Assembly (NCBI RefSeq): GCF_024746835.1
Contig: NZ_CP080531.1
Coordinates: forward strand, 5,600,001-5,664,000
Source: Mesorhizobium sp. AR02
GTDB lineage: Bacteria > Pseudomonadota > Alphaproteobacteria > Rhizobiales > Rhizobiaceae
Length of the DNA stretch: 64,000 nt
Direction: 5' to 3'
Below are positions 3,893 through 53,084 of this stretch, in pieces (the first letter of the stretch is position 1; each line of letters begins with the position of its first letter). Below the pieces are notes generated by a model. It saw only the letters and a list, made by a program, of their open reading frames with translations, was not told the origin of the DNA and did no database searches. A program made the position numbers and the translations under genes.

Positions 3893-5983
3893 CTATTCGA
3901 CGAAGACTTTCACGCTCGCCGCTCGTCCAGCCGCGTCGATGACGGTCAGCGTCGAGTAACCCGCGCCGTCGGGCAGCCAGGTCGCGGTGCGGCGGCGGTC
4001 GATGCCGACCAGCGGCTTGCCATTGGCCAGCCAGCGGAAGGGCGCGCGGCCGCCTTGCAGTTTCAGCACCAGCGGCGAGGCATCGGCCGAATTGGTGGCA
4101 AGGTCGACGCGGGCGCCATCGGGCGGGAAGATGATGGTTGGGGCGGGCTCGGTCGGCGTTGCCTGTACGAGGCCGTCGGCGCCGGCGCCGAAGCGGGCAA
4201 GCGTCACCGGCAGGTCCTCGCGCTTTGGCGTGAAGGCGCCGGGTGGCTTGCCCGGCAGCGGCACGGTGGCCAGGCCCGAGCGGACAAAACCCTCGAACAG
4301 GATCGGGGCGGCCGAGACGTAGCCGGAGAGACCCGGCACGGCGCTGGCATCCGGCCGGCCGACCCAGACACCCAGCACATAGCGGCCATCGAAGCCGACC
4401 GACCAGGCGTCGCGGTAGCCGTAGGAGGTGCCGGTCTTGTAGGCGATGCCGCGCTGCAAGGCGCCTTCCGGCGGTTTTACCCCTGAGAGGATGTCGATGA
4501 TCTGCCAGTTCGCCTGGTCATTGAGGATAGTGGCGGTGGTGCGCTCGGCATTGGCCGGCTCGGTGCCGTCATGCAGCGTGTGTGTCTTGCCGCCATTGGC
4601 GAGCCCCGTATAGAGCTGGACGAGGTCGCGCAGCGTGACGCCGACACCGCCGAGGCCGATGGCCAGGCCCGGCGCCTCGTTGACCGGCAGGATCGGGTTG
4701 ACGCCGGCCTGGCGGAAGCGTGCCGTCAGCCGCGCCGGCCCGACCGCGTCGAGCACGCGGATCGCCGGCACATTGAGCGACAATTGCAGCGCCTGGCGGA
4801 CGCTGACATCGCCCTGGTAGCCCATGTCGAAATTCTTGGGCCTATAGCCGCCGAAATCGACCGGGCTGTCCTCGATCAGCGTTTCCTGCGCCACCAGTCC
4901 CTGCTCGAAGGCAAGGCCATAGATGAACGGCTTCAACGTCGAGCCGGGCGAACGCACGATCTTGGTCATGTCGATCCAGCCGGAGCGGCTGGCGTCGAAG
5001 AAATTGGCCGAGCCGACTTCGCCCAGAATGTCGCCAGTGCGGGAATCGGCTAGCACCATGGCGACGGAGAGACGCGGCCCAAGCCTGGTCGCGGCATCGC
5101 GCGCCACCTGCTCCAGCCCTTCCTGGACGCTTTTGCGGATCGTCAGCTTGAGCGGCTGGCCGGGAACGGCCCTGGGCAGCATCGCATAGGCCGCGTGGGC
5201 GGCGAGCGCCGGCAGGGTGCGCCGCAGGCCCGACACGTCGTCAAGCGCGGCGCGTGCCGCCTCGCGTTCGCCGATCAGGCCTGACGAGACCATGCGGGTC
5301 AGCACACGGTCGCGGGCGGCATGGGCGATTTCGAGGTTGCGGTCGGGTCGGCGCTTTTCCGGCAATTGCGGCAAGGCGACGAGCAAAGCGGCTTCGGAGA
5401 CGGTGAGCCGCTTTGGCTCCTTTCCGAAATAGGCAAGCGAAGCGGCGCGCACGCCTTCGAGGTTGCCGCCATAGGGCGCCAGCGTGAGATAGCGTTCGAG
5501 GATCTCGCGCTTTGACAGCCGCCGCTCGATCTGGATGGCGCGCAGCATCTGCTTGATCTTGGAGCCGAGGCTGCGGCTTTCGCGCGGCTCGATCAGGCGG
5601 GCAAGCTGCATCGACAGGGTCGAGCCGCCGGAGACGATGTGACCGCTGGTGATGAGCTGGCCGGCGGCGCGGCCAAGCGCCAGCACGTCGACGCCCTGAT
5701 GATCCCAGAAGCGCTTGTCCTCATAGGTGACCAGCATGTCGACGAACTGCTTGTCGACCTGGTCGAGCCGGGTTTCGAGCCGCCAGTAGCCGTCCGGCGT
5801 GGCGAAGGCGCGCAACAGCTGGCCATCGCGGTCCTGGACTTCGGTGGAGACTGTCAACGTCGCCGGGAGTGGGGGTGGGAAGGCGCGGTCGAGCTCCCAG
5901 AGAGAGGCGACCGATAGAGCGAGGATGCCGGCGCAGGAAGCCGCGGTTATAGCGGCGCGGCGGAGGAATTTCTTGGAAAGCAT
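3893..5983 (-). CDS. pbpC: Penicillin-binding protein 1C (bifunctional peptidoglycan synthase)
   Basis: Class A penicillin-binding protein of the 1C type. Domains in order (numbered from the upstream ATG at 5998): membrane anchor about 12-35; GT51 glycosyltransferase with catalytic Glu93 in YEDKRFWDH and the GGSTLSMQLARL motif; transpeptidase with SPGSTLKPF (Ser353, Lys356), SLN at 407-409 and KTGTSYG at 521; then the C-terminal BiPBP_C region near 600-701. About 700 residues is normal for PBP1C. I prefer the ATG at 5983, which has AGGGG upstream; the ATG at 5998 lies inside a repeat. It follows the alpha-2-macroglobulin gene by about 100 bases, the classic pairing in Proteobacteria, thought to protect and repair the envelope. 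Confidence 0.93.
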   Translation of the reverse strand: MLSKKFLRRAAITAASCAGILALSVASLWELDRAFPPPLPATLTVSTEVQDRDGQLLRAFATPDGYWRLETRLDQVDKQFVDMLVTYEDKRFWDHQGVDVLALGRAAGQLITSGHIVSGGSTLSMQLARLIEPRESRSLGSKIKQMLRAIQIERRLSKREILERYLTLAPYGGNLEGVRAASLAYFGKEPKRLTVSEAALLVALPQLPEKRRPDRNLEIAHAARDRVLTRMVSSGLIGEREAARAALDDVSGLRRTLPALAAHAAYAMLPRAVPGQPLKLTIRKSVQEGLEQVARDAATRLGPRLSVAMVLADSRTGDILGEVGSANFFDASRSGWIDMTKIVRSPGSTLKPFIYGLAFEQGLVAQETLIEDSPVDFGGYRPKNFDMGYQGDVSVRQALQLSLNVPAIRVLDAVGPARLTARFRQAGVNPILPVNEAPGLAIGLGGVGVTLRDLVQLYTGLANGGKTHTLHDGTEPANAERTTATILNDQANWQIIDILSGVKPPEGALQRGIAYKTGTSYGYRDAWSVGFDGRYVLGVWVGRPDASAVPGLSGYVSAAPILFEGFVRSGLATVPLPGKPPGAFTPKREDLPVTLARFGAGADGLVQATPTEPAPTIIFPPDGARVDLATNSADASPLVLKLQGGRAPFRWLANGKPLVGIDRRRTATWLPDGAGYSTLTVIDAAGRAASVKVFVE

Positions 5984-50775: not shown

Positions 50776-50905
50776 CGGGGAACTCCGGGCGTCGATCTGA
50801 GTGGGACAAGACCAATGGGACTGGGCGAGTGGAAAACAACATCGCGATAAAAGCAATCGGATTCCAGCCGGCGCCGCTGTGGCGGGAACAGGCAGGCAGC
50901 GGCCG

Positions 50906-51697
50906 ATGACAGGGATTTCGCCAGCCGTCGTCGCGGCAAGCAAACTTGGCCTCACCTTCCAGACCAATGATGGGCCCGTCCAGGCGCTGTCCAATGTCGA
51001 CCTGACGATCGGCAAGGGGGAGTTCGTCTCCTTCATCGGGCCGTCTGGCTGCGGCAAGACCACCTTGCTGCGCGTCATCGCCGATCTGGAGAAGCCGACC
51101 TCGGGGACGATCTCGGTCAACGACATGACGCCGGAACAGGCGCGCGAGAAGCGCGCCTATGGCTATGTCTTCCAGGCGGCTGCGCTGTTTCCCTGGCGCA
51201 CGATCGAACGCAATGTCGCGCTGCCGCTGGAGATCATCGGCCTCTCCAAGGCCGAGCAGGCCGAGCGCATCAAGCGGACAATGGAGCTCGTCAACCTCTC
51301 CGGATTCGAGAAGAAGTACCCCTGGCAGCTGTCCGGCGGCATGCAGCAGCGCGCCTCGATCGCCCGCGCGCTGGCCTTCGACGCCGACCTGCTTTTGATG
51401 GACGAGCCGTTCGGGGCGCTGGACGAGATCGTGCGCGACCACCTCAACGAACAATTGCTGGAGCTGTGGGGGCGAACGAACAAGACCATCTGCTTCGTCA
51501 CCCACTCCATTCCGGAAGCTGTGTACCTCTCGACGCGCATCGTCGTCATGTCGCCGCGGCCCGGCCGGGTCAGCGACATCATCGAATCGACACTGCCAAA
51601 GGAAAGGCCACTCGATATCCGTGAAACGCCGGAGTTTTTGGCGATCGCCGCGCGCGTGCGTGATGGGTTGCGGGCAGGGCACAGCTATGATGATTGA
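50906..51697 (+). CDS. ABC transporter ATPase, nitrate/sulfonate/taurine-pyrimidine family
   Basis: 263-residue ATP-binding protein. Walker A GPSGCGKTT, signature LSGGMQQRASIARAL, Walker B LLLMDEPFGALDE, and switch His in CFVTHSIPEA are all intact. It belongs to the SsuB/TauB/ThiZ group that serves THI5/NMT1-type receptors. The frame is open to 50801; I use the ATG at 50906, but the Shine-Dalgarno is weak, so the N-terminus is uncertain. The two permeases and receptor follow downstream, separated from it by the DUF559 element. Confidence 0.88.
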   Translation: MTGISPAVVAASKLGLTFQTNDGPVQALSNVDLTIGKGEFVSFIGPSGCGKTTLLRVIADLEKPTSGTISVNDMTPEQAREKRAYGYVFQAAALFPWRTIERNVALPLEIIGLSKAEQAERIKRTMELVNLSGFEKKYPWQLSGGMQQRASIARALAFDADLLLMDEPFGALDEIVRDHLNEQLLELWGRTNKTICFVTHSIPEAVYLSTRIVVMSPRPGRVSDIIESTLPKERPLDIRETPEFLAIAARVRDGLRAGHSYDD

Positions 51698-52205
51698 GCG
51701 GGGCGAGGATTGGGTTCCTCCTCTCCCCACCGGGGAGAGGGTGGCCGCGAAGCGGCCGGGTGAGGGGGCGGCGCCGACGCATCCAACCAAGAGGAAGGCC
51801 GGGGTCACGGAGCGCGCCCGAGAGCTGCGGCTTGACGAAACCAAGGCCGAATACCGGCTTTGGGGTGAGTTACGGGACCGTCACCTCAACGGCTATAAGT
51901 TCGTAAGGCAAGTGCCACTCGGGCCGTTCTTTGCAGACTTTCTCTGCCGCGAGAAGAGCTTGATCGTCGAAATCGATGGCAGCCAACATGCCGAGTCCCT
52001 GACTGATGAAAACAGAACAACTTGGCTAAACAGCCATGGTTATTCTGTCCTTCGCTTCTGGAATCACGAGGTTCTGGCGGAACGGCGGGCGGTTCTGGAT
52101 ACAATATTAGCGGTGCTTGAGGGGCAGATACACTCCCCCTCACCCGGCCTTCGCTTCGCTCCGGCCACCCTCTCCCCGGCGGGGAGAGGAGAAGGGGAGC
52201 GCTAG
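51687..52205 (+). CDS. DUF559 domain protein (Vsr-like endonuclease fold)
   Basis: About 172 residues. The core LDETKAEYRLWGELRDRHL, KFVRQVPLGPFFADFLC, LIVEIDGSQHAES and YSVLRFWNHEVL is the DUF559 family, related to very-short-patch-repair and restriction-type nucleases; Asp/Glu in FFADFLC and LIVEIDG are the likely metal ligands. Both termini are translated from the flanking palindromic repeats (end reads SPSPGLRFAPATL). The start is uncertain: ATGATG at 51687 overlaps the ATPase stop. The gene is foreign to the transporter operon it interrupts. Confidence 0.75.
   Translation: MMIERGEDWVPPLPTGERVAAKRPGEGAAPTHPTKRKAGVTERARELRLDETKAEYRLWGELRDRHLNGYKFVRQVPLGPFFADFLCREKSLIVEIDGSQHAESLTDENRTTWLNSHGYSVLRFWNHEVLAERRAVLDTILAVLEGQIHSPSPGLRFAPATLSPAGRGEGER
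51710..52189. mobile_element. Candidate small mobile element: DUF559 gene between inverted palindromes
   Basis: Left arm 51720-51768 and right arm 52135-52189 are inverted copies: CCTCTCCCC[A/G]CCGGGGAGAGG, then GTGGCCG, a short variable loop, and GGCCGGGTGAGGGGG (right arm read as reverse complement). Each arm is itself palindromic. The left flank carries TTGGGTTCCTC, as in the element at 40019. The unit of about 480 bases sits exactly between the ATPase and first permease gene without breaking either. Confidence 0.6.
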
Positions 52206-53084
52206 ATGGACACCTTCCGCGACAAACTCATCCCTGTCACCTCGATCCTCGCCGGCGTGGTCGTGCTCTGGTACGTCATGGCCGTCATCCTCAACGCGCC
52301 GTTCCAGCGCGATCTCGACACCCGTGCCAACGAAACCTCCGGCACCGTCGAATTCATCGGCAAGACGCTGGCGCAGCCGAAGCCGACGCTGCCGGCGCCG
52401 CATCAGGTGGCGGTGAACTTCTTCGAGAACACCTTCCTGCGGCCCATCAATTCGAACCGCAGCCTCGTCTACAATGCCTGGGTGACGCTGTCGTCGACGC
52501 TGCTCGGCTTTGCCTTCGGCACAGCACTCGGCATCATCATTGCCGTCGGTATCGTGCATGTGGCGACGCTCGACCGCAGCCTGATGCCGTGGATCATCGC
52601 CTCGCAGACGATTCCGATCCTGGCGGTGGCGCCGATGATCATCGTCGTGCTGGCGGCGGTCGGCATTACCGGGCTGATCCCGAAGGCGATGATCTCGACC
52701 TATCTGTCGTTCTTCCCGGTCACCGTCGGCATGGTCAAGGGGCTGCGCTCGCCCGAGATCATGCATCTCGACCTGATGCACACCTACAATGCCAGCGCTT
52801 CGCAGACTTTCTGGAAACTGCGCGTGCCGGCCTCGGTGCCGTTCCTGTTCACCTCGATGAAGGTGGCGGTGGCGGCAAGCCTCGTCGGCGCCATTGTCGG
52901 CGAACTTCCGACCGGTGCGGTCGCTGGCATCGGCGCCAAGCTGCTCGCCGGCGCCTATTACAGCCAGTCCATCGACATCTGGTCGGCGCTGGTCGCCGGT
53001 TCGATCGTGGCGGCACTGCTGGTCATGGTGGTCGGCATTGCCGGCCGCCTGGTCGACCGTGCCATGGGCGGGAGGCCGGCATGA
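52206..53084 (+). CDS. ABC transporter permease 1 (SsuC/ThiX type)
   Basis: 292-residue inner-membrane permease. Six or so hydrophobic segments; EAA-like loop LDLMHTYNASASQTFWKLRVP near residue 195 and IASQTIPILAVAPMIIVV are standard for the sulfonate/taurine/pyrimidine permease group. It begins one base after the DUF559 stop and overlaps the next permease by 4 bases (ATGA). Confidence 0.88.
   Translation: MDTFRDKLIPVTSILAGVVVLWYVMAVILNAPFQRDLDTRANETSGTVEFIGKTLAQPKPTLPAPHQVAVNFFENTFLRPINSNRSLVYNAWVTLSSTLLGFAFGTALGIIIAVGIVHVATLDRSLMPWIIASQTIPILAVAPMIIVVLAAVGITGLIPKAMISTYLSFFPVTVGMVKGLRSPEIMHLDLMHTYNASASQTFWKLRVPASVPFLFTSMKVAVAASLVGAIVGELPTGAVAGIGAKLLAGAYYSQSIDIWSALVAGSIVAALLVMVVGIAGRLVDRAMGGRPA

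Follow-up and report, generated by a model that had tools for sequence, protein, structure and literature searches.

A DUF559 nuclease gene between inverted REP-like repeats in Mesorhizobium: a possible novel class of very small selfish element

Described repeat systems and the DUF559 locus

Repeats resembling repetitive extragenic palindromes (REPs) are widespread in bacterial genomes, and REP-associated tyrosine transposases (RAYTs) are hypothesized to move those of the GTAG type; among the repeats of rhizobia are the Rhizobium-specific intergenic mosaic elements (RIMEs). RAYT genes are reported always to be flanked by two inverted REPs (PMC2817692), and REP doublets, known as REPINs, have been described as replicative units that occur as gene-less inverted doublets across the genome (PMC3116915). 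A further class, the CGTC-tagged REPs, comprises palindromic repeats found mostly in Alphaproteobacteria and apparently lacking a dedicated transposase, the rule for which is a CGTC tag (with TGTC and CCTC variants), an AT at the stem base and a CCA tail (Di Nocera 2013; PMC3733652). Here we describe a gene encoding a protein with a domain of unknown function (DUF559) that lies between two inverted palindromic arms in an ATP-binding cassette (ABC) transporter operon of Mesorhizobium sp. AR02 (phylum Pseudomonadota; genome of 8.9 Mb), within a stretch of 64,000 nt (assembly GCF_024746835.1, contig NZ_CP080531.1; G000:C2:5600001-5664000 in our numbering) that we refer to as the window. We consider it probable, although well short of certain, that the locus is a small element in which two inverted REP-like repeats enclose a DUF559 nuclease gene, the protein recognizing and cutting the repeat and so spreading or keeping it.

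The locus shares with the RAYT/REPtron/REPIN systems the placing of a gene between two inverted palindromic repeats and the presence of gene-less repeat doublets in the genome. It differs from them in enzyme and repeat tag, and for this reason is not filed as a RAYT despite the same architecture: RAYTs are HUH enzymes of the IS200/IS605 type, whereas the window protein is PD-(D/E)XK/Vsr-like with no match to PF01797 (Y1_Tnp), the arm sequences show a TGAGGGG-type tail and no GTAG tag, and the presence of Y1_Tnp does not predict the repeat. The arms resemble the CGTC REPs in being palindromic repeats, mostly of Alphaproteobacteria, but by eye they depart from the description in PMC3733652, since the stem of the window arm begins with CC and its tail is TGAGGGG. 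In relatives, repeats with a CGTCATCC end, which we read as CGTC, do accompany the arms at this site, either next to them or in the interval that they enclose. As for known nucleases, the Pfam scan of the window protein gave no match to PF03852, the domain of the canonical very-short-patch repair endonuclease Vsr, and the protein differs from EDxHD homing endonucleases such as I-Bth0305I in that no intron or intein context was seen at the window locus and no long DNA-binding extension is present. A link between DUF559 genes and repeats was not found in literature searches covering titles and abstract portions of DUF559 papers and passages of PMC12907096 and PMC9403480, and the association described below is very strong and, within the literature searched, appears to be unreported.

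The unit sits cleanly between the ATPase and permease genes, as a reading of the window made from sequence alone (hereafter the sequence-only reading) had claimed: the DUF559 ORF begins (ATG, 51687) in overlap with the stop codon of the ATPase gene (ATGATGATTGA), and nothing separates its TAG (52203-52205) from the ATG of the permease gene at 52206 (Table 1). The same reading correctly described the arms as inverted near-copies that each hold a palindrome. Positions 51718-51747 pair with 52162-52191 (30 nt, 97% complementary) and 51754-51768 with 52135-52149 (15 nt, 100%), and each outer palindrome has a 9-bp stem, that of the left arm being CCTCTCCCC-N3-GGGGAGAGG; the two outer palindromes are also direct repeats of each other. 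The second hairpin is clean in the left arm and imperfect in the right, and the G-rich tail of the left arm, GGGTGAGGGGG, is turned to the DUF559 gene, as is the tail of the right arm. Folded as single strands, the arms are only mildly more stable than shuffled sequences (z -1.76 and -0.92), so that energy alone is no proof of them; the proof is their recurrence.

The ORF (open reading frame) between the arms matches PF04480 (DUF559) with an E value of 4.9e-37 and 126.6 bits against a curated cut-off of 20.6, the only other Pfam match being to MTES_1575, below its cut-off. As the sequence-only reading had also noticed, the ends of the protein are translated from the arms (residues about 11-28 from the left and 150-169 from the right), and by manual count the C-terminal motif PSPGLRFAPATLSP or a close variant, which is the arm read in frame, is present in 23 of 35 aligned proteins. 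D84, E95 and H101 (protein numbering) are invariant among aligned DUF559 proteins and D97 is nearly so, which makes these four residues a candidate active site. The folds closest to the modelled protein are those of a DUF559 protein, a homing endonuclease and Vsr, and the window protein is predicted to have the catalytic fold of the EDxHD homing endonucleases. In the model the predicted local distance difference test (pLDDT) score is about 77-92 for residues 51-150 and below 50 for residues 1-9, 13-32 and 163-172; the part encoded by the left arm and the last residues are therefore apparently disordered, residues 150-162, which score better, less so. The domain is under purifying selection (median dN/dS 0.063; such medians were taken over the pairs that fell within limits on dS, 120 of 190 for DUF559 and 120 of 136 for the permease). 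Across 20 orthologous loci, differences in the domain (last 150 nt) fall mainly at third codon positions (1120/433/4266), and those in the right arm show no codon-position bias (360/402/358) even though it is translated, so that the arms appear to serve as signals in the DNA and not as protein sequence.

Table 1. Features of the DUF559 locus in window coordinates
Feature	Position	Strand	Basis and parts
DUF559 (Vsr/EDxHD-like nuclease) gene, 519 bp, 172 codons	51687..52205	+	ORF, Pfam profile
DUF559 domain PF04480	51807..52121	+	profile coordinates and conserved alignment columns
Left arm	51718..51768	+	palindrome 51720-51740, second hairpin 51743-51757, tail 51758-51768
Right arm, inverted	52135..52191	-	tail 52135-52145, imperfect second hairpin 52146-52166, palindrome 52169-52189
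Upstream ABC transporter ATPase gene	50801..51697	+	ORF and PF00005, E 1.6e-33; true start uncertain
Downstream ABC transporter permease gene	52206..53084	+	ORF and PF00528, E 3e-24

DUF559 genes and palindromic repeats across Pseudomonadota

The flanks of DUF559 genes were compared at 180 loci (33 from the host and its relatives, 80 from named genomes and 27 plus 40 from a phylum-wide sample), of which 178 were distinct once duplicate domain DNA had been removed and 176 remained after exclusion of those with less than 150 bp of flank on a side; the 67 phylum-wide loci are part of all matches, 40 of them being hand-chosen, one per genome and mostly the best match. A palindrome of the arm class lies within 300 bp of the gene at 163 of the 176 loci, and on both sides at 90, compared with 32 and 0 of 685 shifted control positions. 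The sequence-only reading had proposed asking whether the DUF559 genes of Rhizobiales are flanked by such repeats; most of the DUF559 genes sampled are, also in the phylum-wide subset, the part of the sample with the least bias towards the window (62 of 67 on at least one side, 36 of 67 on both). Other ORFs in the same DNA had palindromes on at least one side in 29 of 303 cases and on both in 4 of 303, as against 107 and 67 of 116 for the DUF559 genes there, and none was found beside genes for canonical Vsr (0/26), ParE (0/26) or Y1_Tnp (0/22), even with flanks taken 100 bp further out (usable control loci being 26, 26 and 22 of 30, respectively). In a motif-free test, in which an inverted-repeat score of at least 36 counted as armed, 40 of the 67 phylum-wide DUF559 loci passed and none of 400 positions shifted along the same sequences did; ParE loci gave 0/26, and outside the window clade, among named genomes, the result was 27 of 60 DUF559 loci against 2 of 446. 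Arm sequence varies between DUF559 clades and the plan is common to them, the tail pointing towards the gene on 168 sides and away from it on 23. The armed state is also clustered on the DUF559 tree (38 changes, against a shuffled mean of 57.7 and minimum of 49).

Whole genomes were compared with the generic repeat pattern CTCTCCC-N(2-10)-GGGAGAG-N(1-30)-RTGAGGG, which was present in 84 of 299 Pseudomonadota genomes, its reversed control giving one match; variants that it would miss exist and were seen across DUF559 clades. At least three copies were present in 61 of 86 genomes with DUF559 (E <1e-10, with 26 weaker matches counted as negatives) versus 10 of 213 without, a co-occurrence that persists when stratified by family (odds ratio 72). 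No link was seen with Y1_Tnp, the repeat being found in 17 of 88 genomes with that domain and 14 of 62 without, while in the same 150 genomes (a set reconstructed from numbering and consistent with the listing) it was found in 26 of 36 with DUF559 and 5 of 114 without.

Several loci had further peculiarities. An array of palindromes resembling bacterial interspersed mosaic elements, with steps of about 77 and 95-100 bp, lies upstream of one DUF559 gene (L246, 4410-4965), and at three Mesorhizobium loci (L102, L104, L108) DUF559 units are tandemly duplicated at one site with a period of about 1.07-1.09 kb. The arms of L098 contain a palindromic insert of about 88 bp with a GGACGAAAAGCCAATTGCTTGGCTTTTCG core (4805-4894 and 5423-5512); solo repeat pieces of the host genome are bordered by the same core (L345, L349), which is perhaps another small element, one that targets the arm repeats.

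Gene-less copies, near-empty sites and relocated relatives

Gene-less repeat copies, for which the sequence-only reading had proposed a search, are scattered in the host genome, many as inverted pairs. The window arm has at least 39 matches there (40 of 79 candidates scored), and among the regions of the 20 matches chosen for reading, some of which hold two matches, 14 contain a pair of palindromes separated, as judged by eye, by some 20-25 bp (22 bp in three measured pairs), several of the pairs carrying tails at both outer ends. The arms of a second host DUF559 gene, L003, are of a different type, and related arms form gene-less pairs at 10 sites in a set of 30 loci that includes L003 itself twice. 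These pairs have the same orientation as around the gene and a start-to-start distance of 80-122 bp, and in keeping the arms and orientation of a DUF559 gene they are like miniature inverted-repeat transposable elements (MITEs), from which they differ in that no target duplication was identified. Gene-less pairs of opposite orientation also occur in the host (L360/L368, L373). A profile search of the whole host genome found no Y1_Tnp (PF01797). The host also has two canonical Vsr genes (G000:C2:2371143-2371355 and 2083220-2083432), separate from its four DUF559 genes.

The slot between the ATPase and permease genes was compared within the genus, in which 116 of 119 genomes have the permease; 90 loci were read (30 from the search and 60 fetched, the other 26 being left out), and exclusion of L144, which has no ATPase on its contig, left 89 resolved congeners. 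The DUF559 gene is present at the slot in 17 of these and the slot is near-empty in 10 (gaps of 3-29 bp, six of exactly 13 bp), so that the presence and absence at orthologous sites by which transposable elements are recognized was found in the empty-site comparison that the sequence-only reading had called for. A single palindrome is kept in two congeners, as recombination between the two outer palindromes would leave, and arms without the gene are seen in 46, of which 45 (27 with the right arm, 14 with the left and 4 with both) also bear a CGTCATCC-type repeat and one has a right arm alone without it. The remaining 14 have by pattern only a CGTC-type repeat, although the pattern misses some arm remnants and, the classes being approximate, several of these loci (e.g. 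L138, L161) still show the left-arm palindrome. The states are scattered on the operon tree. The gene is hence missing from many relatives, and DUF559 genes elsewhere are associated with repeats, the reverse on both counts of what the sequence-only reading had said would tell against it. Many congeners (L116, L145, L150, L171, L186 and others) have a composite repeat of the CGTCATCCTAGGG type in place of the DUF559 gene, lying either between these arms or next to them. Congeners also differ at another, intergenic site (L381-L410) in whether they carry a repeat dimer, but because the intergenic DNA around it varies as well, this is not a simple insertion.

Near relatives of the window gene occupy different gaps of the same operon in other genera, namely hyuC/hyuA (L054, L056, L059), both hyuC/hyuA and hyuA/cupin (L058) and ATPase/permease (L055), the labels hyuC, hyuA and cupin being provisional; DUF559 is thus recurrent in one catabolic/ABC operon. 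L056 and L058 pass the inverted-repeat cut. In L054 the repeat dimer is confined to one side, and the ATPase-permease slot is nearly empty. A further relative, L057, lies elsewhere, between two complete repeat dimers. Across contexts, flanks are similar in 17 of 25 pairs of DUF559 genes of at least 70% identity versus 8 of 300 sampled pairs below 50% (groups of more than 300 pairs were sampled down to 300).

Possible mechanism and competing explanations

The explanation that we hold most likely is that the repeat unit, a palindrome with a G-rich TGAGGGG-type tail turned to the gene and often with a second hairpin, is recognized by the Vsr/EDxHD-fold DUF559 protein as duplex, cruciform or single-strand hairpin. 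The protein would then cut or nick the repeat, and this cutting could cause repeat pairs and the gene itself to spread or be kept, by analogy with the RAYT transposases, which are thought to act on REPs and REPINs, the enzyme here being unrelated. The sequence-only reading had likewise given the protein a RAYT-like role; of this, the association with repeats stands, and the cutting or moving of the repeat is what we infer. More tentatively, DUF559 proteins may be the dedicated enzymes of a Pseudomonadota-wide superfamily of TGAGGGG-tailed repeats, independent of RAYTs and acting on hairpin or cruciform ends to leave gene-less dimers and MITE-like pairs, which we hold to be possible but a little less than an even prospect.

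A number of observations weigh against such an element. Some repeat-rich genomes have no strong DUF559 match (G342, 27 copies; G300, 32; G372, 102), and the generic pattern is absent from 16 of the 86 genomes with DUF559. Of the 176 loci, 74 are without a strong inverted pair and 13 show the palindrome pattern on neither side, seven of these 13 passing the inverted-repeat score and six (L062, L073, L087, L204, L207, L262) passing neither test within 300 bp, possibly as a domesticated or differently partnered branch; the motif-free test also scores 1 of 22 Y1_Tnp loci as armed, and at one locus at least (L231) the two flanking copies share a strand, so that inversion of the arms is not absolute. 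Three of the relocated relatives score below the inverted-repeat cut (L054, 22; L055, 24; L059, 35), L057 is negative for flanks shared with the window clade, and the clades in which arms go with the gene from one context to another number only about three that are independent. At the slot itself, DUF559 and permease distances correlate (Mantel r 0.38, 1/2000 permutations, 17 loci), so that descent there has been at least partly vertical, accompanied by repeated loss or by allele exchange, and recent transposition there is not documented; neither a clean insertion junction nor a target duplication was found in the loci compared.

A homing-type relation fits nearly as well. The repeat would then be the landing site, a free-standing Vsr/EDxHD-like endonuclease cutting solo pairs into which its gene is copied by recombination, and the repeats would spread by other means. 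We nevertheless regard homing as unlikely, since it needs a second agent to spread the repeats, the role for which Y1_Tnp shows no association, whereas repeat copy number tracks the presence of DUF559; moreover, the DUF559 protein is little more than its domain and lacks the long DNA-binding extension of the phage EDxHD homing enzymes (PMC3943268).

It is less likely still that DUF559 is a housekeeping nuclease for repair, or specific for palindromic structures or mismatches, with the arms serving as regulatory or terminator hairpins and nothing being mobile. The strong purifying selection on the domain accords with such a role, as does the Caulobacter DUF559 protein VsrA, which is SOS-linked and a predicted mismatch-repair endonuclease (PMC12907096) and which also counts against the element. 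Housekeeping, however, predicts neither the dozens of gene-less copies nor the near-empty sites, the relocation within the operon or the tail orientation, and canonical Vsr genes have no palindromes beside them.

That DUF559 genes are accessory passengers lying by chance in repeat-rich gaps is already disfavoured and very improbable: repeats are indeed common in some genomes, but ParE, another accessory family, had none, other ORFs in the same loci were rarely flanked on both sides (4/303 versus 67/116) and the tails have an orientation bias. The notion that a RAYT or other transposase moves the repeats and carries DUF559 along, for which the RAYT genes with their two inverted REPs offer the same architecture, is the least credible, given the lack of Y1_Tnp in the host genome and of any dependence of the repeats on it elsewhere.

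If DUF559 proteins are indeed the dedicated enzymes of such repeats, VsrA of Caulobacter would be a member or a domesticated relative of the DUF559 repeat system, and a second, unrelated class of enzyme with repeats of its own would explain a widespread repeat family. It would also provide a function for a domain of unknown function, together with an enzyme and a DNA substrate that can be tested directly against each other.
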